NCBI GenBank assembly: GCA_025408445.1
Contig: JANYIZ010000201.1
Coordinates: 1 to 64,000, forward strand
Length of the DNA stretch: 64,000 nucleotides
From: Frigoribacterium sp.
GTDB taxonomy: Bacteria; Actinomycetota; Actinomycetes; Actinomycetales; Microbacteriaceae
Direction: 5' to 3'
In this document: positions 4,420-28,865 of the stretch, in pieces
How positions within the stretch are numbered: position 1 is the first letter of the stretch
Layout of the letters: every line of letters begins with the position of its first letter
Program-made: the position numbers and the translations under genes
Notes under the pieces: generated by a model
The model's database searches: none
What the model was told of the DNA's origin: nothing
Seen by the model: only the letters and a program-made list of their open reading frames with translations

Positions 4420-5016
4420 CTACACGGTGGCGCTCTCGCGCGCCGCGAGGCCTTGCTGATGCCGATAGAGGGTTGCCCTGCTCCACCCAACGAGTTTCGC
4501 CGCGTCCGCCGCGGTCCTTCCCTTCGCCCTAGCCTCAGAAACGAGTTTGAGCTTGTCTGCGACGACGAGAGGATCTGACAGAGGGCGGCCGAACCTGGTG
4601 CCGCCTTGCCGGGCGGCCGTGATCCCCGCATTCACGCGCTCCGTGATCAGTTCGCGTTCGTACTCAGCCAGAGTAGCCAGCATGTTCAGCATCAGCCGGC
4701 CCGAAGTCGTTGACGGGTCGATGCCATCCGAGATGCTCTTGACCTGCACGTCCCGCTCCCGAAGCAGCTTCACGGTATTCAGAACATCAATCAGGGAGCG
4801 TCCGAGTCGATCGACCCGCCACACGACGACGGTGTCACCTGGCTCGGCATACTCCAGAAGCTTCCTCATCCCCAGGCGCGAGATCGCGGTACGGCTGCCC
4901 GAAGTGACGTCGGCAAAAATGTCCCGCTCCTGCACGCCCGATTTGATCAGAGCGTCGACCTGCAACTTCGCGTCCTGACTTCTGGTGCTAACCCGTGTGC
5001 ACCCGAGATGTCTCAC
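4420..5016 (-). CDS. Intact small serine recombinase (resolvase/invertase family)
   Basis: 198 residues, the normal size. The catalytic serine is Ser10 in TRVSTRSQD. The conserved arginine cluster is at 67-73 (RVDRLGRS), followed by the long E helix (LMLNMLATLAEYERELI, ERV), a GRPL linker and a C-terminal helix-turn-helix (AADAAKLVGWSRATLYRH). No disabling change is visible. Such enzymes resolve or invert DNA between two about 28-bp crossover sites. The sequence upstream of its start holds repeated half-sites of a GTCTCGGAAA type, and a matching site lies at 11656-11685, so both its probable targets are in this window. Confidence 0.9.
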   Translation of the reverse strand: MRHLGCTRVSTRSQDAKLQVDALIKSGVQERDIFADVTSGSRTAISRLGMRKLLEYAEPGDTVVVWRVDRLGRSLIDVLNTVKLLRERDVQVKSISDGIDPSTTSGRLMLNMLATLAEYERELITERVNAGITAARQGGTRFGRPLSDPLVVADKLKLVSEARAKGRTAADAAKLVGWSRATLYRHQQGLAARESATV

Positions 5017-19994: not shown

Positions 19995-21575
19995 CTAACG
20001 CTGTGCGCCGCGCTCGGGCGGCGTTGTCGGTACCTGCCGCCTTGGCGTGAGCGGCGTCGGAAGTGGGCTGCCTGCCGGTCGTGCCGGCGCCTGCCCTCCG
20101 GTGGCCTGGCGCAGCGTCTCGGTCATCGGGCTCTCGGCCGCGATTGTGTCTGAACCGGCACCGACGAGTTCGGGCATCCGGGCTCGAACGGCATCCAGCC
20201 GCGCGCCGAGGGCGTTGCGGATCTCCGCGGCCCGTCGTGACTCGTCGACGGCCAGGTGCATCTGGTAGATCGCCTGCGCCGTCCGCATCACCTGACGAAA
20301 CAGCATCGCCTCCGCCTGCGTGCCCTGTCCATGCGTGGTCGCCATGGCCAGGAGGTTCGCCGCACCGGCGATCGAGCGAGGACCGGCCGTGTTCTTCGGC
20401 CGCACGTCGCGGGCTCTGATCTGAGCAGTGCGCGCGAGCGTCCGCGAAGCGTCCGCGAGCGGGCCCGGTGTCGCCTCGACCCGCTGCGACCATGCGGCGA
20501 ACGCGCCGCTGGTTTCCCGTGCCACCCGCGCCCACGTGGCCCGGTCGGTCGGGTCGACGGCAGTGAGCTGGTCGCGCAGCTGCGTCACCTGGTCGGTGTA
20601 CTCGCGCCACAACTCAGGTGACGGCTCGTGCTGCTCCCGGCCAGGAGCGACCGGTGTGTACCGCATCGGGTTTCGCCAGGTCGCTCGCCACTCGTCGACG
20701 CCGGCCTGCGCCGACTGTGGGGTGTCCGGCCAGCCGTCCCGAAGCCGCGGCAAGGTCAGGTCACGGGCGAGCCGCCCTCCCCCATGCCAGACGATCGTCT
20801 CGTCCCGGTTCCCGGGGCGAAGCGCGACGGAGTAGCCGGCCACAACATCGTCGCGGTCGGCGGCGAAGCGTGGCCGCACGAGCACGCCGGCCTGGTGCAG
20901 CCGGCGCACGAACTCGCCCTCGTCGAGTGACGCTGCAGCGGCAGCTCGCACGCTCCGCTCGAGGCGCACGGATGCCAACGTGTCGTCGCCGCGACGGGCA
21001 GCTGTCTCGCGCTCCCCCGGTCGCTCTCCGCGCATGGCCATGTCCGACCCGCGCGACTCGAGCAGCTGCAGTCCGTGCTCCTGCTCGAGCTCGCGGGCGA
21101 TCGACTGAGCCCGCGAGTAGTCGTGGTGGATCGACGCCTTGGTGCCGTCCTCGCGCACCAGGTTGACGGCGATGTGGATGTGGTCGTTGCCGGCTTTCGA
21201 CAGGCCGTGCCGAACGGCGACCCACCGGCAGCCGGCCTTGCCGGAGACTTGCGTGAATCCCATCCGGTCGACGAACTGCTGCGCGATTCTTCCCCAGTGC
21301 TCGTCGGTCAGCTGCCCCTCCTCAGCACGGAGGCTAAGGCTGGCGTGCCAGACGTGGCCGCCGTTGACCTCGACCCCGAACGCCGTCCGGGGCTCGTCGA
21401 GGTGCTTCGCGATCGCCAACGCCGTCGACGGTGCAAGCTCGCTGTCACCGAAGAGGGTAAACGTCGCAGAGTCGCCGTTCACCAAGTGCGGCTCGGTGTG
21501 CTCGTTCGAGCGCCCCTCCCCCGCGAGGTAGCTCAGCAGACCGCCCATACGGTCGCCCCGCGTCACGTTCGGCAT
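19995..21575 (-). CDS. Relaxase/mobilisation nuclease (MobA/VirD2-like)
   Basis: 526 residues. The N-terminal 200 form the nicking domain. HVWHASLSL (His74, His77) and AGNDHIHIAVNLV (His132, His134) give the metal-binding histidine motifs of MOBP-type relaxases. The long remainder is helical and charged, with a Pro-rich end. The ATG at 21575 overlaps the last stop of the mobC frame (TGATG), which decides the start. It would nick an oriT and lead strand transfer using another element's conjugation machinery. mobC is broken, so mobilisation may be impaired. A second relaxase of a different class is divergent from it. Confidence 0.88.
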   Translation of the reverse strand: MPNVTRGDRMGGLLSYLAGEGRSNEHTEPHLVNGDSATFTLFGDSELAPSTALAIAKHLDEPRTAFGVEVNGGHVWHASLSLRAEEGQLTDEHWGRIAQQFVDRMGFTQVSGKAGCRWVAVRHGLSKAGNDHIHIAVNLVREDGTKASIHHDYSRAQSIARELEQEHGLQLLESRGSDMAMRGERPGERETAARRGDDTLASVRLERSVRAAAAASLDEGEFVRRLHQAGVLVRPRFAADRDDVVAGYSVALRPGNRDETIVWHGGGRLARDLTLPRLRDGWPDTPQSAQAGVDEWRATWRNPMRYTPVAPGREQHEPSPELWREYTDQVTQLRDQLTAVDPTDRATWARVARETSGAFAAWSQRVEATPGPLADASRTLARTAQIRARDVRPKNTAGPRSIAGAANLLAMATTHGQGTQAEAMLFRQVMRTAQAIYQMHLAVDESRRAAEIRNALGARLDAVRARMPELVGAGSDTIAAESPMTETLRQATGGQAPARPAGSPLPTPLTPRRQVPTTPPERGAQR

Positions 21576-21921
21576 CACGAGTCGGCCAGCCGATCAACCG
21601 CCGCGGTGACCCTAGGGAACAACGCACTGAACTCGGTAGTGACCGCTTCGGCCTCGGCCGGGAAGGTCCCCTCCGTGTTCGTTCAGCGGGCCAGCTGGTT
21701 CAGGTTCGTGGCAATGCCGGCGACCTCGCGACGGATGCTGAACAACTCCGCGATCGCCGCCTTCCGCACACCGCTCGCCTGGACCTCTGAACGTGCGGAA
21801 TCGTGCAGTACAGCTCAACGGTCTCACCTATAGCCGCGGACCTCGATTCAAACTCGGCCACCTCGCCGGGTTGCACCCCTGGGACCGACGGTGCGGTTGC
21901 GCTGACCTTGACCCTGTGAGC
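21575..21921 (-). pseudogene. Degenerate mobC (relaxosome accessory) gene
   Basis: The last part of the minus-strand frame reads VRKAAIAELFSIRREVAGI, then ATNLNQLAR, then an in-frame TGA (21683-21685), then EGTFPAEAEAVTTEFSALFP and AAVDRLADS, ending on the stop that overlaps the relaxase ATG. GIATNLNQLAR is the hallmark of MobC proteins. Further upstream, LAHRVKVSATA resembles the family start, but the frame between is lost. One nonsense codon and at least one frameshift make it a pseudogene. Confidence 0.7.
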
Positions 21922-21927
21922 CAGCCC

Positions 21928-22012
21928 AAGAATTCTTCACAGCACTGAAACAAAGAATGTACATATGCTACCATAGATAGTTGCAAGAACATGAGATAGA
22001 CCGGAGGCGGCG
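21928..22012. other. Divergent mobilisation intergenic region, possible oriT
   Basis: This AT-richer gap separates the two divergent relaxase operons. It has a 10-bp palindrome AAGAATTCTT at 21928-21937 and a TATGCTACCATAGATAG stretch that could hold a -10 element. GGAGG lies six bases before the next start. An oriT is expected near relaxase genes; no nic site can be named from sequence alone. Confidence 0.35.
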
Positions 22013-24907
22013 ATGAAGGGCGGCGTGATCCTGTTCCGGGGCTCCGGCGCAGACGCGCGCCGCTACCTGGAGTCGGATCGTTCGCGCGCCGACGAGTACT
22101 ACCTGGAGGGCGGGACCTCCCTGGCGGAGTTCTCGGTGGTCGACGGCAAGGGTGCCGTGATCGGGGAAGGCGCGCTGACGCCGGGCCAGTACGCGCAATG
22201 GGTCGACTGGGTCGACCCGCTCACCGGGGAGTCGATGGGCGGGCCCCGGCAAGCGGGCGAGGGCCGGCAGGGTTCGCCGCGGTTCGCGGAGATGGTGATA
22301 AACGCTCCGAAGTCACTGTCGATCGCGGCCGCGCTGCACCCGGAAATATCGGAGGCGTTGGATGTGGCGCAGAAGGACGCGATGACCGAGATCCGTTCCT
22401 GGCTCGGCCAGCACTCCGTCACCCGCATCGGTCCGCGCGGGAAGCAGGAACTCGTGCCGGTCGAACAGCTGGAGACCGTCTCCGTCGTGCACAAGACCTC
22501 CAGGGCTGGTGACCCGCACCGGCACATCCACTTCCAGATCGGCACCCGCGTCTGGGCGGCAGGTGCGTGGCGCGGTCTGGACACGGCAGCGTTGTTCAAG
22601 CAGCAGGGTGCAATCCGCGCCCTCGGTACCGCGGTCATCGCCGCGCACCCGCAGCTCGCCGTGGTGCTTGATACGCATGGCCTTACCCTCGATCCGGTCA
22701 CCGGGGAGGTCGCGGAGTTGCTGCCCTACAACGCGGTCATGTCGAAGCGGGGTGAGCAGGTTGCGCGCAACCTCGCCCAGTTCGAGGCGGACTGGCGGGC
22801 GGCGCATCCAGGGCAGCAGCCCGGCCCGGTCGTCACGTCGGGGCTGACCGCGATGGCGTGGGATCACGAGCGCCCGCACAAGAAGCCGTCGAAGCTCGGC
22901 CACGAGGCCGCCTGGCGCGTCGAGCTGGAAGAGGCTGGCTACAACCCGAACCCGAAGCGGCTGCCGGTGCCCGCTCCGGTGATGCTGGACGACCTGAGCG
23001 TGCAACAGGTAGCAACCCGGGCGCTCGACCGTTGCGCGGCCGCCGCATCGACCTGGACGCGGCACACGGTACAGGAGCACGTCACCCGCATCATCACCGA
23101 AGCAGGCGTGCGCGCGGAGCCCGCAGCGTTGCGCGACCTGATTGCGATCACCACACGGCTTGCCGTGGAGGATTGCCTGTCGGTGCTGCCACCCGGTGCC
23201 ATGCAACCCGACCATGTTGCACACCTCACCAGCGTGCACGTCGTGGAGGTCGAGATGGAACTGCGCGACCTGTTGGCCGCTCGTGCCGCCGGCAGCGCCC
23301 GCCAAGCACCGGACGTGACACGCCTGGCGCGGCGGCGCGGGCTTGATGCGGAGCAGGCACAAGCAGCAGCAGCCGTCGCGTCGACCGATCCGCTCGTAGT
23401 GATCGAGGGTGCCGCGGGCGCGGGCAAGACCACCATGCTCGGGGCCGCGATCGAAGCGTCCGCCGCCCAGCGGCGCACCACGAGGATCGCGACGCCGACG
23501 AAGAAGGCCGCCGACGTCGCCGCCCAGGAACTCGGAGTCCCAACCGACAGCGTGGCGAAGCTGGTACATGAGCACGGGTGGCGATGGAACCGCGACGGCG
23601 TATGGACCCGCCTGCGTCCTGGTGACATCGACCCGGTGAACGGCAGCACGTATACCGGCCCCTCCCCGGGCACTCGCCTCAGCCGTGGCGAGCGGATCAT
23701 CGTGGACGAGGCCGGGATGCTGGACCAGGACACCGCCCTCGCGCTCCTGACCGTCGCGGACGAGCACGGGGCGACCCTCGCGCTCGTCGGGGACCGGGCG
23801 CAGCTCGCCGCCGTCGGCCGTGGTGGAGTGCTCGACATCGCGGCACAGATCTCGCCGTGCGTGTTCGACCTGATGACCGTGCATCGCTTCACTGACCCGG
23901 AGTACGCGGAACTCACCGTGCGGATGCGCGCCGGGGAGCACCCCGCGCTGCTGTTCGACCGGCTGCACTCCCTCGGCCTGGTGGTGCTGCACGAGAGCAC
24001 GGAGGGTGCGCAGGCGACGATCGCGCATAGTGCCCGTGACGGAGACACGATCACGGTGGCGACGAACGACGAGGCGCGGGCGCTGAACTCGGGCATTCGC
24101 GATGAGCGGGTGCGCGCTAGCGCCGTCGACGACGCTCGCACGACGACCGGCGGCGATGGCCTGCCGATCGGCCGGGGCGACGTGATCCAGACCAGGAAGA
24201 ACGATAGCGATGTGGGGGTGGCGAACCGGCAGAACTGGATCGTGCAGAGCGTCGGGGTCGATGGGACGGTGTGGGTGAAGGAGAACGGCACCGGCCGGAA
24301 GCGGCAGCGCACCGTCCGACTCCCCGGCGAGTACGTCACCGATCACACTCACTTGGCCTACGCCACCACCGCCTACGGCGTCCAAGGCGCGACCGTGTCC
24401 GAGTCGCACACCGTCCTCGGGGACGCGCTCGATGCCTCCGGCGTCTACGTCGGCATGACCCGTGGCCGGGAGGCAAACCACCTGCATGTGGTCGCCGACA
24501 ATCTGGACGAGGCGCGGGAGCAGCTCGTCCTCGCGCTCGAGCGCGACCGAGCCGACCGGGGTCTCACCCGCGCGACCGCCAGTGCGCAAGAAGCGGTGAC
24601 CGGGCTCACAGTCGATGGACCCGTGCGGCTCGTCAATGCCACGAAGGCGAGACTCCGGCAGCAGATCCAGGCCGCCGAGCACTTCGCTCGGACCAGCACC
24701 GGTGCGCAGACAGCGCTGCACGGAACGCAGGCAGCGGCCGCCCGCCGATCCCTCGCTGAGATCGAGCGTCTGCCAATCGACCGGGCCGCCCGACTCATCA
24801 AGGCCGCTGAGCGACGCCGCCAGCGCGCCGCGCGACTGCCGGATGTGACCAGATTCGGCCGCGACACCAGCGGTCGGAGTGGACCGGAGCACGGCTTGAG
24901 TCTGTGA
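22013..24907 (+). CDS. traA: TraA/TrwC-type relaxase-helicase (MOBF)
   Basis: 964 residues. The N-terminal relaxase domain has the three-histidine motif HRHIHFQ (His169, 171, 173) and a tyrosine pair at 29-30. The middle holds a superfamily-1 helicase: Walker A GAAGAGKTT near residue 470, Walker B IIVDEAGMLD near 561, LVGDRAQLAAVGRGG and the late motif TTAYGVQGATV near 785. A helical C-terminus follows. It would nick, unwind and pilot DNA in conjugal transfer. No type IV secretion or coupling-protein gene is in the window, so the element could only be mobilised or is a relic. The ATG has an excellent GGAGG site. Confidence 0.9.
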   Translation: MKGGVILFRGSGADARRYLESDRSRADEYYLEGGTSLAEFSVVDGKGAVIGEGALTPGQYAQWVDWVDPLTGESMGGPRQAGEGRQGSPRFAEMVINAPKSLSIAAALHPEISEALDVAQKDAMTEIRSWLGQHSVTRIGPRGKQELVPVEQLETVSVVHKTSRAGDPHRHIHFQIGTRVWAAGAWRGLDTAALFKQQGAIRALGTAVIAAHPQLAVVLDTHGLTLDPVTGEVAELLPYNAVMSKRGEQVARNLAQFEADWRAAHPGQQPGPVVTSGLTAMAWDHERPHKKPSKLGHEAAWRVELEEAGYNPNPKRLPVPAPVMLDDLSVQQVATRALDRCAAAASTWTRHTVQEHVTRIITEAGVRAEPAALRDLIAITTRLAVEDCLSVLPPGAMQPDHVAHLTSVHVVEVEMELRDLLAARAAGSARQAPDVTRLARRRGLDAEQAQAAAAVASTDPLVVIEGAAGAGKTTMLGAAIEASAAQRRTTRIATPTKKAADVAAQELGVPTDSVAKLVHEHGWRWNRDGVWTRLRPGDIDPVNGSTYTGPSPGTRLSRGERIIVDEAGMLDQDTALALLTVADEHGATLALVGDRAQLAAVGRGGVLDIAAQISPCVFDLMTVHRFTDPEYAELTVRMRAGEHPALLFDRLHSLGLVVLHESTEGAQATIAHSARDGDTITVATNDEARALNSGIRDERVRASAVDDARTTTGGDGLPIGRGDVIQTRKNDSDVGVANRQNWIVQSVGVDGTVWVKENGTGRKRQRTVRLPGEYVTDHTHLAYATTAYGVQGATVSESHTVLGDALDASGVYVGMTRGREANHLHVVADNLDEAREQLVLALERDRADRGLTRATASAQEAVTGLTVDGPVRLVNATKARLRQQIQAAEHFARTSTGAQTALHGTQAAAARRSLAEIERLPIDRAARLIKAAERRRQRAARLPDVTRFGRDTSGRSGPEHGLSL

Positions 24908-25019: not shown

Positions 25020-26312
25020 ATGAAAGCGAGGAATGCACTCCGCGAGCTGGCCGAGATGTCCGCCTCGCAGTGGGGCATGGTCACTTCGGCCCAGGCCGCC
25101 ATGCGCGGAGTGACCCGGCTCGACCTGTCACGCCTCGCCGAGTCCGGCGATCTTGTCCGGCTCGCGCATGGCGTCTACAAGGATGCCGGTGCACCGAGTG
25201 CCGCTTACCTCGATGTGCGCGCGGCGTGGCTCAGTAGCGATCCCGCGCGCCTTGCAAGTGACCGCCTCGGTGACGGCCACCGCGGTGTTGTGGTCTCCGG
25301 GCAGACTGCTGCGTGGCTGCATGACATTGGCGACCTCCGTTCGAACCGCACCGAACTGACTACCGCGGTCCGTCGACAAACGCAGCGCGCCGACCTCCAC
25401 TACCGACGACGCGACCTACCAGAGGAGCACGTCACGATCCGCGACGGGCTGCCCGTGACGACGCCAGAACGCACGATCGCTGACCTGGTCGAGGACCGAA
25501 CGGACCTGTCGATCGTCGCCGACGCACTGCGTGACGCGAGCCGAAAGTACGAGCTCGATCTCGAACTGCTCGCGGACAGCCTTGCCCCGCTGGCGGAACG
25601 TAACGGCCACCGCAAGGGTGACGGTGTAGCCCTGCTCGACCAGCTCCTTGTGATCGCCGGAATCGACCGCGAGGCGATCGCCAAGCAAATTGCGTCGCTG
25701 GATGGGATCGGTGTGCTTGTCGCGCGGAATTATCTGATGAATCTGCCGAAGATCGACCTCGCTGCGCTGATCGACACGACCGCGCTCCAGAGCGCGATGC
25801 GCGCGGCCCTCCCCCAGGACAAGCAGTTCGACGCGCTGCGCGCCGCACTGAGCGACACGGTCCGGACCCAGCTGCCGACCGCCAAGATGCTCGAGGGCCT
25901 TGCAACAAGCACGTGGGCGGAGAACATGAACGCAGCACTGTCTGCACAAATGAAGGCGATCGCCTGGACGCAGCTCGCGCGGTCTGCCGCAGCACTGGAT
26001 CGTACGAGGACCGTCCCGGAAGAAGCTGAGACATGTCAGAGCCGTACAAAAGCGCGGCCGCAGTCGAAGCCGCGATCCGCGACGCTGCCCGAAACGCCTT
26101 CGTCGCCGACAAATCCATGTCCACCCAGGACCGGATTCGCCAGGAGCACTTCCGCCGCTTCCTCAGTCGCATCTTCTCCGAGCGCGACGACTCGGACTGG
26201 CTTCTCAAGGGCGGCACCGGAGTCCTCGCCCGCGTCGCATCCGGCCGACGCACCACCGACGTCGACCTCTTCCGCGCCAACAACACGCTCGACGGTGCCC
26301 TCAAAGAACTGA
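25020..26312 (+). CDS. abiEi: AbiEi-type antitoxin (type IV toxin-antitoxin)
   Basis: 430 residues as an open frame. Residues about 1-60 form the winged helix-turn-helix (ASQWGMVTSAQAAMRGVTRL, then LARLAHGVYKDAG-like continuation), and VSGQTAAWLHDIGDL and VTTPERTIADLVEDR are family blocks of the AbiEi antitoxin C-terminal domain. It represses its own operon and counters the AbiEii nucleotidyltransferase. The frame continues 280 bases into the toxin gene, where the last 93 residues are low-complexity Ser/Thr/Pro/Arg and look like toxin DNA read out of frame. The normal stop near the toxin start may have been lost. Confidence 0.82.
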   Translation: MKARNALRELAEMSASQWGMVTSAQAAMRGVTRLDLSRLAESGDLVRLAHGVYKDAGAPSAAYLDVRAAWLSSDPARLASDRLGDGHRGVVVSGQTAAWLHDIGDLRSNRTELTTAVRRQTQRADLHYRRRDLPEEHVTIRDGLPVTTPERTIADLVEDRTDLSIVADALRDASRKYELDLELLADSLAPLAERNGHRKGDGVALLDQLLVIAGIDREAIAKQIASLDGIGVLVARNYLMNLPKIDLAALIDTTALQSAMRAALPQDKQFDALRAALSDTVRTQLPTAKMLEGLATSTWAENMNAALSAQMKAIAWTQLARSAAALDRTRTVPEEAETCQSRTKARPQSKPRSATLPETPSSPTNPCPPRTGFARSTSAASSVASSPSATTRTGFSRAAPESSPASHPADAPPTSTSSAPTTRSTVPSKN

Positions 26313-26938
26313 CCCGCCTCGCCAGTCTCGACCTCGGCGACTTCTTCCGATTCGTCTATACGAAACACCAATCCGCCGTCGCCGGCGACCAGCAGACCCA
26401 CACCGAGGGCTACGGCGTCGACTTCGACGTCTACATCGGCGCCGACAAGAAGGAGCCGCTGCACGTCGACCTCGTCGTCGGAGCCATCATCACCGACGAA
26501 GTCACGCTCACGCCACCAGCCAACCGCCTCGACCTGCCCCGGCTCCCCAGCAACGATTACCGCCTCTACCCGATCGTCGACCAGATTGCGGACAAGGTAT
26601 GCGCGACGATGGCCGACTACAGCGGTCGGCCGTCGAGCCGCGAGAAGGACCTCGTCGATCTCGTCATCATCGCCAAGACACAGACCGTGAGCGCCGACTC
26701 GCTGAAGCGCGCCATCGACGCAGAGGCCCGTGCTCGCTCGCTCATCCCATTCACCGAACTGACCATCCCACCAACCTGGGGACGTCGGTACGCGAAGGAG
26801 GCGAAGGATGTGCCGTACTGCTCCGACCACCGGACGGTCGACCTCGCGGGCGAACTAATAAGCACCTTCATCAACATAGTCTTGCACAACGAGGTCTCCG
26901 GCAAGAGCTGGACCCCGGGTTCGCTCGTCTGGAGCTGA
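26033..26938 (+). CDS. abiEii: AbiEii-type nucleotidyltransferase toxin
   Basis: 301 residues. The nucleotidyltransferase core is present: FLLKGGTG-type motif (WLLKGGTGVLARVASG), then RRTTDVDLF, whose two aspartates would bind metal, with later LHVDLVVG and the conserved helix PIVDQIADKVCA containing a lysine for catalysis. AbiEii toxins modify tRNA and stop growth, giving phage resistance by abortive infection. The ATG at 26033 is the first plausible start and lies inside the antitoxin frame. The pair sits beside the tRNA-Phe attachment scar, a usual place for element-maintenance genes. Confidence 0.88.
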   Translation: MSEPYKSAAAVEAAIRDAARNAFVADKSMSTQDRIRQEHFRRFLSRIFSERDDSDWLLKGGTGVLARVASGRRTTDVDLFRANNTLDGALKELTRLASLDLGDFFRFVYTKHQSAVAGDQQTHTEGYGVDFDVYIGADKKEPLHVDLVVGAIITDEVTLTPPANRLDLPRLPSNDYRLYPIVDQIADKVCATMADYSGRPSSREKDLVDLVIIAKTQTVSADSLKRAIDAEARARSLIPFTELTIPPTWGRRYAKEAKDVPYCSDHRTVDLAGELISTFINIVLHNEVSGKSWTPGSLVWS

Positions 26939-26960
26939 CCGCTGGCGCTCTGCCCGATCC

Positions 26961-27028
26961 TGGGCCATTTCTGGGCCATTTCCGGGCCATTTCCGGCCCG
27001 GAAACCAACTGCGACCAACTGCGACCAA
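26961..27028. repeat. Short tandem repeats next to the attachment scar
   Basis: An 11-base unit (T/C)GGGCCATTTC occurs three times at 26961-26993. A 10-base unit CCAACTGCGA occurs twice at 27005-27024, followed by CCAATC. They lie between abiEii and the tRNA fragment and could be integrase or excisionase arm-type sites. Confidence 0.6.
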
Positions 27029-27093
27029 TCAGAGAAATACCTGATCAGAAGGATGTCGGCCATATATATACTGTGTGAAATCCCCCTCTGGAT

Positions 27094-27138
27094 CACTGAA
27101 AATCGAAAGGTCACGGGATCGACGCCCGTCGGAGCCAC
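27094..27138 (+). pseudogene. tRNA-Phe(GAA) 3' half, integration scar (att site)
   Basis: From the anticodon loop onward the sequence matches an actinobacterial tRNA-Phe: ACTGAAAATC (GAA anticodon), a variable AAAGGTC, a T-arm CACGGGATCGACGCCCGT and the acceptor end CGGAGCCAC. The 5' half is missing: the upstream GGATC does not pair with TCGAA. A Rho-independent terminator follows at once. Integrases commonly use the 3' half of a tRNA gene and leave such a copy at the far end of the element, so this should be the island's right boundary. Confidence 0.7.
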
Positions 27139-27141
27139 TGT

Positions 27142-27177
27142 CCGATCTTCCGGCTTCTACGGGAGGTCGGTTTTGTT
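27142..27177 (+). terminator. Rho-independent terminator of the tRNA-Phe fragment
   Basis: CCGATCTTCC (27142-27151) pairs over ten positions, two as G-U, with GGGAGGTCGG (27161-27170), and TTTTGTTT follows. It starts three bases after the tRNA 3' end. Confidence 0.7.
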
Positions 27178-27840
27178 TCCTCGAATTCCCTCGCCGGGCG
27201 TGAACAAGTGTTGCTCACATCGCACCGCCGGGAGCTGGCGAACTCGCGGCTAGTGAGAACTCGATCTGGGCCGCATGGCGAGTTCACCAAGGAACAGTCC
27301 ACCCCAATGTTCCGGGGACTACCCGCCATTGGATCGGTAGGTCCCGCGGACGGATAGGACCGCGCCATCCGTTCCTCGGGCGCCACGGCGCGTACCTGGT
27401 CCCGCACCCCCGCCCGATAAAGCCATCAGCAGAGCACGCGAACATCGCGACAGCCGGAGTCGCCTCCCCCGGCTGTCTCGCCGGGAGAATCGCGAAGTCC
27501 GTATCGAATTCTGATTCCACGGCATTTACTGGGTCGGTCACGGTTTTTAGTTAGCCGGGTGCCGTGCGGCCGATCGCCACCACAGGGAGCCACCCGACAA
27601 CCCGATGGAGACAATCGGTCGTGTGCCGACACTGTGTCGGTTACTTTCCGGCGTGGAATTTCTTGGCAAGCGACCGCGACCGACTGAATTCCTGGGTCAG
27701 GGGATTGACACCCGTCGGCGGCACGTTGGCTATCTGCATGATTCTGCCGCGGATAGTTGGGGACTGCGCGATCGGATCTTCTTACCTGATCCGTACACAA
27801 CGCTCACTCTTCGGTAACACTCGCCTGCTTAACTCGTCGC
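27178..27840. other. Non-coding stretch between two tRNA-Phe remnants and the hydrolase gene
   Basis: No supported gene is seen over about 660 bases. It contains a second, weaker tRNA-Phe 3' remnant at 27683-27724. The rest may be the remains of an earlier inserted element whose genes were lost. Confidence 0.45.
27683..27724 (+). pseudogene. Second, decayed tRNA-Phe 3' half
   Basis: ACTGAATTCCTGGGTCAGG, then GGATTGACACCCGTCGGCGG and CAC aligns along its full length with the fragment at 27094-27138 and differs at scattered positions, including the anticodon loop. The T-arm stem is partly kept. It reads as an older duplicate of the same attachment sequence. Confidence 0.5.
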
Positions 27841-28620
27841 ATGACCGAAAGTGCCCTTCCCCACTTCTTCGCAGGTAGCGGAGTGCCGCTCGTCGTCGTA
27901 CCCGGGCTCTCGGGCCGAACAGGCGCCCCTTCGCGACTCAAGGTGTGGATGGACCGAAAGGCGATCGCCGACTTCATCGTTGATCGCAAGGTATTCAGCA
28001 TCGATCGACCGTATGACCTCGACCCGGGCGCAACGATCGCCGATCTGGCCGCGAAATATGCGAGGACTCTCACGTCCCTGTTCGACGAACCGGTCGACAT
28101 CCTTGGCATCTCCTCCGGAGGAACGATCGCCCTGCAACTCGCTGCCGACTTTCCCGAACTGGTGAGGAGGCTCGTGCTCGTGTCATCCGCCCACCGGCTC
28201 AGCGATCGGGGACGCAAAACTCAGCGCACGGTCGCAGCGCTGCTGCGGGCGGGACGCGATCGACGGGCCGCTGCGGTCTTCTTCGGCAACACCGGCGCCA
28301 CCTCGTTCGAAAATATCCTCCGGTCGATCGCCGGCCTGATCGCTCCCCGCGCCATCATCGGACGTCGCGACCTCGACCTGCTCGTCATCCTCGACGCCGA
28401 GGATGACTTCGATCTCGACGAGCGCCTCGAGTCCATCGAGGTACGCACGCTGATCGCTGGCGGCGAGTTCGACAGGTTCTATTCGTCGGCCCTGTTCGAG
28501 CACACGTCAGAGCGCATGCCGAACGCGCAATTGAGCGTGCACGCGGGAGGCGGCCACCTGGGCACGCACGGCAATCCACGACTCGTGCGTGAGATCCTGA
28601 CATTTCTCGAGGCGGCATAG
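27841..28620 (+). CDS. Alpha/beta-hydrolase
   Basis: 259 residues with the hydrolase fold order: oxyanion strand PLVVVPGLSG, the nucleophile elbow GISSGG with Ser91, a late acidic residue in LIAGGEFDRF and the catalytic His in HAGGGHLGTHG. Between them lies a helical cap (residues about 120-185). The substrate cannot be read; small esters, lactones or haloalkanes are all possible. It is the first intact gene after the tRNA-Phe scars and has its own promoter region. The ATG follows a poor ribosome site, but the family's start pattern (HFFAGSGVPLVVVPG) begins just after it. Confidence 0.85.
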   Translation: MTESALPHFFAGSGVPLVVVPGLSGRTGAPSRLKVWMDRKAIADFIVDRKVFSIDRPYDLDPGATIADLAAKYARTLTSLFDEPVDILGISSGGTIALQLAADFPELVRRLVLVSSAHRLSDRGRKTQRTVAALLRAGRDRRAAAVFFGNTGATSFENILRSIAGLIAPRAIIGRRDLDLLVILDAEDDFDLDERLESIEVRTLIAGGEFDRFYSSALFEHTSERMPNAQLSVHAGGGHLGTHGNPRLVREILTFLEAA

Positions 28621-28633
28621 AGCAGCTCAGAAT

Positions 28634-28865
28634 TCACCGTCGGCCGGCCGGTTGCTTCTGCAGCGGGCGGCCCTCCTCGTGTGGCCGCAGCGACGTCGCC
28701 GCTTCGTCGCGCACCGCCGTCGACACTGCCTCAAGCAGCGGCGATGCCAGGTTCCACCGCTGCCAGTACAGCGGCACAACGACCGGATGCCTGCTCCATC
28801 GCCTTCACCCGCTGGGACACAGCCGAGGGCGTTACGTGCAGTTGCGATGCGGCCGCTTCGAATGC
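28634..28865 (-). pseudogene. argP: argP (LysR-type regulator of lysE), internal deletion and lost start
   Basis: On the minus strand AFEAAASQLHVTPSAVSQRV and KAMEQASGR give the helix-turn-helix of an ArgP/IciA regulator. After a frame change comes VVVPLYWQRWNLASPLLEAV, then STAVRDEAATSLRP, the usual ArgP C-terminus, to a TGA at 28634. About 200 middle codons are missing. The N-terminal start codon is also gone: the reading begins at the join with lysE at 28861-28865. It cannot encode a working protein. Confidence 0.75.

Follow-up and report, generated by a model that had tools for sequence, protein, structure and literature searches.

Two 3' halves of a tRNA-Phe(GAA) gene lie one behind the other at the right-hand edge of a genomic island in Frigoribacterium sp., and we read them as the outcome of two successive site-specific integrations into one tRNA-Phe 3' end (tandem accretion), a reading to which we assign a probability of roughly 0.84. 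Five observations in the window, by which we mean the whole stretch of 64,000 nucleotides that was analysed, and in related genomes carry this reading: an empty site in a congeneric sister genome (G003), the recognition of both copies as tRNA-Phe ends, the presence of the outer copy in G003 without the island, a difference between the terminators behind the two copies, and a conserved attachment arm at attR. An initial annotation had proposed repeated integration at one tRNA gene by at least two elements, and the empty site of G003, together with the reality of the second copy, supports that proposal. The features around the junction are the following (a strand is given where the feature has one):

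26962-26999: three direct repeats with an 11-bp period (GGGCCATTTCY) found by repeat search, proposed arm-type integrase sites of attR
27003-27027: two 10-bp repeats ACCAACTGCG, kept in most rows of the arm alignment, a proposed second arm-site cluster
27095-27138, plus strand: attR core, the 3' half of tRNA-Phe(GAA)
27139-27178, plus strand: terminator of the displaced tRNA-Phe 3' end ("type B")
27179-27678: remnant between the two scars, with no recognizable relatives except 27302-27379 in G003
27679-27724, plus strand: older, decayed tRNA-Phe 3' half (outer scar)
27725-27762, plus strand: decayed terminator ("type A"), most similar to the terminators that follow the intact tRNA-Phe of G005 and G011
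27841-28620, plus strand: alpha/beta hydrolase gene (Pfam), the first chromosomal gene on the right, collinear in G003 and G008

The displaced tRNA-Phe end and its empty site

All 44 positions of the first copy (27095-27138) are identical to the intact tRNA-Phe(GAA) gene in G003, and the match continues through the terminator to 27178 (84 nt, 96% identity) and breaks off leftward at 27095. The earlier description of this copy as a tRNA-Phe(GAA) 3' half with its own terminator thus stands, and only its start changes, from 27094 to 27095. Everything rightwards of 27095, the terminator behind the first copy included, is chromosome side, so that the island ends at 27094; as judged from this alignment, the edge is at 27094/27095, with the crossover somewhere within the 44-bp core, and the right edge previously put near 27.2 kb moves there. 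As expected for a 3' half, ARAGORN found no complete tRNA in the window. Rfam over the window gave no family match at gathering score, and a permissive Rfam scan of 26500-28300 returned three weak matches, none of them a tRNA. Searching the own genome with the Phe 3' pattern (up to three mismatches) yielded one match, and thus no further close copy.

In G003, the genes for tRNA-Glu, tRNA-Asp and tRNA-Phe run into DNA collinear with window positions 27302-27379 (83%) and 27674-28651 (90%), and the collinearity extends with gaps, at 90%, to about 36.7 kb. By this collinearity the G003 locus is the empty site, in which an intact Glu-Asp-Phe cluster leads straight into the window's right flank; it provides the comparison with an island-free relative that the initial annotation had called for. 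The same right flank follows tRNA-Phe or its 3' half, at a variable distance, in G005, G007, G004, G011 and G008. In G008, whose chromosomal flank is 73-78% identical to that of the window, the hydrolase flank follows the terminator after only about 75 nt; G005 is the next nearest genome by flank identity (79-86% in six of the seven flank matches and 68% in the remaining one).

The left chromosomal flank lies on another contig of the own genome, C25, which breaks off within tRNA-Asp of the Glu-Asp-Phe cluster, with 141 of 141 nt identical to the beginning of the G003 contig. The contig that holds the window, C201 (71,999 long), begins at window position 1, inside the island; its positions 1-165 resemble a multi-copy sequence of G005 (about 72-77%), a possible reason for the contig ending at this point. 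ARAGORN detected neither tRNA-Phe nor tRNA-Asp in 30 loci of the own genome (of 38 tRNA hits), and the eight hits without a locus are not of the Phe type because they are 82-89 nt long. The intact tRNA-Phe and the integrase of the own genome likely fall in the assembly gap between C25 and C201.

The outer scar and the order of insertion

The second copy aligns with the first in a best block of 27695-27724 against 27109-27138, at a start-to-start distance of 586. Since only 25 of the 30 positions in this block are identical, one could imagine that the match, noted at 27683 in the initial annotation, arose by chance and that a single integration took place, an explanation that we find scarcely credible. 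The outer scar scores 20 against the Phe 3' half, a value above those of all 2000 dinucleotide-shuffled versions of the 1-kb stretch, which average 11.0 and peak at 19; it is the best Phe match on both window strands bar the first copy (runner-up 16). In a comparison with 30 tRNAs, 28 of them from the own genome and two being tRNA-Phe from relatives, Phe came out best: scar and flanks align with tRNA-Phe over 51 columns at a score of 25 (G005) or 23 (G003), and the best non-Phe score among the 28 own-genome tRNAs is 13. Moreover, the flank is terminator-like and G003 conserves the scar at the same position (L065 499-543), its version scoring 16 against Phe and 12 against the next tRNA. A chance match, which the annotation had itself named as grounds for giving up its reading, thus fails against both the shuffles and the tRNA comparison, and the second copy is a decayed Phe 3' half. 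The scar alignment starts in the anticodon stem, a few bases upstream of the start of the inner core, and we tentatively suggest that the older element may have used a slightly longer core.

Because G003 carries the scar without an island at that site, either the scar is the older of the two or the island was lost in G003. A scar-like copy, the tRNA ends themselves aside, was found only in G000 and G003 among 20 relative loci and the window contig. We therefore turn to the terminators, as the terminator behind a displaced tRNA end tags its insertion and allows the order of insertions at one site to be read from sequence alone. We scored the 50 bases that follow each scar against 23 stretches located behind tRNA-Phe genes or halves, with mononucleotide shuffles that keep single-base content only and with the 46 comparisons left uncorrected. 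The best match of both scars was the terminator of G005 (score 15 for the window scar and 18 for the G003 scar; 0/1000 shuffles each), followed by those of G011 (13 and 17; 9/1000 and 0/1000) and G015 (11 and 10; 35/1000 and 22/1000). The terminator behind the first copy scores 6 against the window scar and 15 against the G003 scar, and that of the intact G003 tRNA-Phe 6 and 13; the G003 scar flank thus matches terminator B too (0/1000 shuffles for the 15 and 4/1000 for the 13), and terminators A and B have their loop in common. On these scores the window scar parts A from B clearly, the G003 scar by a few points only. The presence of the scar in the island-free G003, and a flank nearest to the G005 and G011 terminators and not to that of the first copy, agree with the earlier proposal that the outer scar is probably older than the island. 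The loop GCTTCTAC is common to 14 of the 23 stretches behind tRNA-Phe ends (27153-27160 in the window), with differing stems, and a similar terminator is also found elsewhere in G003 (L065 1466-1495).

In the course of events that we favour, an early element, presumably inserted by an integrase, would have brought a tRNA 3' end with a type-B terminator and moved the native 3' end outward together with its type-A terminator. This element would then have been almost wholly deleted, leaving about 0.5 kb (about 0.2 kb in G003) and the decaying 3' half at 27679-27724. A later mobilizable element, equipped with a MobF relaxase and an attachment arm of the tyrosine-recombinase type, would have inserted into the rebuilt tRNA-Phe and displaced the type-B 3' end to 27095-27178, where it now forms attR. 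The state of G003 could also be obtained if both elements had arrived together as a composite and G003 had then lost the inner one by precise excision, as the excised state would resemble G003, and transfer of tandem composites is described for other hosts in those sections of a 2017 review of integrative and mobilizable elements (IMEs) that we draw on (PMC5704250). Such a joint arrival needs a loss in G003, however, and it sits poorly with a scar flank that is native-like and decayed when the inner core is still identical at every position; we regard it as quite improbable.

What lies between the two copies is relevant to a further alternative. The remnant at 27179-27678 contains no attachment-arm repeats and no recognizable integrase or other element genes; it has no DNA match at E 0.05 in the loci compared (six window or G003 copies set aside), and the first 20 matches of a translated search were short and scattered and were judged to be noise. 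With no element genes recognized between them, and with copies only 586 bp apart (about 220 nt in G003), the outer copy might have arisen when the tRNA 3' end and its terminator were duplicated locally in tandem, by slippage or recombination, the island ending at 27094 being the only integration. The restriction of the scar to G000 and G003 among the loci examined, and the short gap between terminator and hydrolase gene in G008, would fit this as well. A duplication is nevertheless expected to place the same terminator behind both copies, whereas the outer one is closest to those of G005 and G011, and strongly reduced relics of the same form do exist: in G161 (L152) an intact tRNA-Phe is separated by about 1 kb from a 3' half that has an attachment arm. 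We thus consider a duplication unlikely.

Two successive integrations, which remain our preferred reading, have a counterpart in the tandem accretion of ICEs, IMEs and CIMEs. The cited sections of the review name integration, decay and then a second integration as the source of such structures, with reference to the ICESt1-related elements of Streptococcus thermophilus (PMC5704250). As far as these sections go, the likeness extends to site-specific integration, a remnant that keeps its att site, a second integration and stacked 3' ends (PMC5704250). The present case differs from what is described there in that the older remnant is down to about 0.5 kb, with a decayed att site, and in that the order is read from the difference in terminator type (PMC5704250).

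The island and its attachment arm

The part of the island contained in the window comprises the following features:

1-27094: right-hand portion of the tRNA-Phe island, which G003 lacks at this site; the left end lies off this contig
19995-21578, minus strand: ORF of a MobA/VirD2-like (MobP-type) relaxase (Pfam PF03432, E 7.1e-17)
22013-24907, plus strand: MobF (TrwC) relaxase-helicase (PF08751, E 1.3e-40; PF13604, E 1e-41; NCBIfam MobF above cut-off)
25020-26312, plus strand: AbiEi antitoxin ORF (PADLOC AbiEi, E 1.5e-86, residues 1-280 of 430; PF13338)
26033-26938, plus strand: AbiEii toxin, of a type IV toxin-antitoxin / abortive-infection pair (PF08843, E 3.6e-20; PADLOC AbiEii, E 3.2e-114)

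The two relaxases, which belong to different families, stand back to back in divergent orientation (19995-24907). The AbiEi ORF (430 aa) and AbiEii overlap by 280 bases, and since the best AbiEi match ends at residue 280, the 3' part of the ORF may be a read-through caused by a frame change. Left of the relaxases lie metabolic and regulatory genes, an IS21-type remnant and a serine recombinase (resolvase) ORF (4420-5016). No mating-pore or coupling genes were found among 22 scanned window ORFs left of 27.1 kb, in an island whose left end is missing. Presumably the island arrived as one element. At E 1e-10, the proteins encoded within 1-21.9 kb match nothing in the Phe-site elements described below, and among all island proteins only the relaxase and AbiEi (which matches L101) do. 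This suggests that the island may be composite, or else it may come from a sister group that uses the same att core.

There is no tyrosine integrase on C201, and a search of the own genome gave six integrase matches of at most 35% identity to the Agromyces integrase, from which it follows that the left end of the island is not seen. Two contigs were considered as the missing end and rejected. C102 (L162, 5625 bp) carries a second MobF element, with part of a relaxase gene (75% DNA identity) and an integrase that reaches the contig end. It was judged to be a different element, since these two genes share a strand, unlike in the Agromyces elements, where they lie on opposite strands, and its integrase is 28% identical to that of Agromyces. 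On C148, another ORF directly follows the integrase.

The 133 bp left of the core constitute a conserved attachment arm, in common with elements of 11-19 kb in Agromyces and Leifsonia. Altogether 20 arms, that of the window included, can be aligned, with the repeats in register in most rows; the arm of G008 is partial, as the contig ends there. The other aligned arms hold two repeats of the GGGCCATTTCY type, and A. luteolus and Agromyces sp. Root81 have similar repeats immediately inward of tRNA-Phe. The initial annotation had suggested a search for other elements with this att core, and such elements were found: among 299 family genomes, 12 others have the arm together with the Phe 3' half (11 at E of 8.2e-12 or below, G191 at 1.6e-5). 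At E 0.01, 147 of the 299 genomes match the query of arm and Phe end, most of those listed through the tRNA part only. Over 95 nt the G008 arm is 97% identical to that of the window, well above the identity of the chromosomal flanks, which suggests lateral transfer.

MobF elements at tRNA-Phe in the family

With the MobF relaxase as query, 38 named loci were obtained, mostly from genera of Microbacteriaceae. At 12 of them there is a tRNA-Phe match, comprising the full gene in ten and a part of it in Leifsonia poae (L115) and A. lapidis (L122), and at all 12 an integrase at least 73% identical to that of Agromyces sp. Root81 or A. luteolus adjoins this match (in two pieces in L117). By analogy, the integrase of the window island would be a tyrosine recombinase like that of Agromyces. 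In nine of the 38 loci, eight from Agromyces and that of L. poae, another 3' half lies beyond the relaxase; these doubly flanked elements measure 11.4-19.1 kb, and a BLAST search found the arm in seven of them but not in L104 and L128. The relaxase appears to be broken in L115 and L128. The element of A. luteolus has GGGCCATT repeats at both ends and different terminators after its two tRNA ends, which is the kind of swap that we invoke for terminators A and B of the window.

In a relaxase tree of 35 rows (the window, two further sequences and 32 of the 38 relaxase loci), a clade with 100/100 support holds ten of the 11 Phe-site relaxases, the window and G191 falling outside. Short or broken sequences had been left out (L099, L115, L120, L126, L127, L128), and one stop in L098, like any in L149 and L150, was read as X. 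On this tree the window relaxase is not part of the main Phe-site clade, its own position being left open.

We examined five elements by Pfam (L101, L102, L104, L118 and L121; 30 ORFs). The ORFs were drawn from non-overlapping ORF lists, and cover the listed ORFs of at least 400 aa but not every small ORF; relaxases and integrases among the listed ORFs of at least 400 aa were recognized by BLAST. No coupling-protein, VirB4 or FtsK domain and no RepSA was found among the ORFs scanned, and for want of such coupling-protein, VirB4 or FtsK domains the Phe-site relatives look like mobilizable elements. Two of the five hold clear defence-type cargo, judging by domain content: in L118 there is a type I restriction system along with a reverse transcriptase and an AIPR protein, and in L101 a SIR2-type protein resembling Dsr1, as well as AbiEi. 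The cargo of L121 (DUF6791-ThiF) and L104 (AAA_21/DUF4435 and a weak NACHT match) is only suggestive of defence, and L102 gave a weak STAND match only, with no PADLOC match in the two ORFs tried. A 229-aa ORF adjoins the integrase in four elements (L102 6500-7189, L104 4818-5507, L115 5513-6202, L118 3369-4058). It has no Pfam match in the two examples scanned; the L102 protein has a 76% relative in G011, only one of 13 genomes of the genus, and is missing from the own genome.

The Agromyces and Leifsonia relatives resemble canonical IMEs, which have an integrase and their own relaxase and no mating-pore genes, in their tyrosine integrase at a tRNA, their own relaxase (the window island has two, as listed above) and their size of 11-19 kb, but differ in that the relaxase is MobF. 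According to the portion of the 2017 review cited here, MobF and MobH relaxases are absent from all known canonical IMEs, only one of which was from Actinobacteria (PMC5704250). With AICEs of the pSAM2 type the relatives share the actinobacterial host, the tRNA 3' end and the tyrosine integrase, as far as these are laid out in the cited part of a survey of actinobacterial ICEs, which itself sought T4SS-type ICEs by TrwC (PMC3218068). They differ from AICEs in that neither an FtsK-type transfer protein nor RepSA is present in the ORFs scanned of five Phe-site relatives. A literature search, judged by the titles and abstract openings of the papers listed, found nothing on tRNA-Phe integrative elements in Microbacteriaceae. 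Tandem accretion at a tRNA is thus already known; mobilizable elements of the MobF type are less expected and less well described, and the present site points to such elements in Microbacteriaceae, some of them with defence genes.

As for how common stacked ends are, the Phe 3' pattern (up to three mismatches) occurs in 264 of the 299 family genomes, and at least two copies of the Phe end are found in 44, not always on one contig; this count, made by hand, misses decayed copies such as that at 27683 and would include two full tRNA-Phe genes. Stacks of three, an intact gene with two halves, are seen in G171, G077 and G083. One could speculate, at what we would put slightly below even odds, that Microbacteriaceae hold a widespread family of MobF IMEs docking at the tRNA-Phe 3' end and shuttling anti-phage genes that flank the relaxase (AbiE, SIR2-type and type I restriction, perhaps also reverse transcriptase and ThiF/DUF6791); these elements would stack and decay, making the locus a readable record of defence-island turnover of which the window holds two layers.

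The same end of tRNA-Phe is also found in other kinds of sequence. G009 has a different element of 4.6 kb at tRNA-Phe (L076 10474-15142), with a RepSA-type protein and an integrase. The Phe core is present in 18 contigs of a viral collection (L165-L185), twice in three of them, and phages or prophages may use the same tRNA-Phe site too. Among 50,697 phage records there was one match (86%), and three plasmid records matched, all from Arthrobacter.
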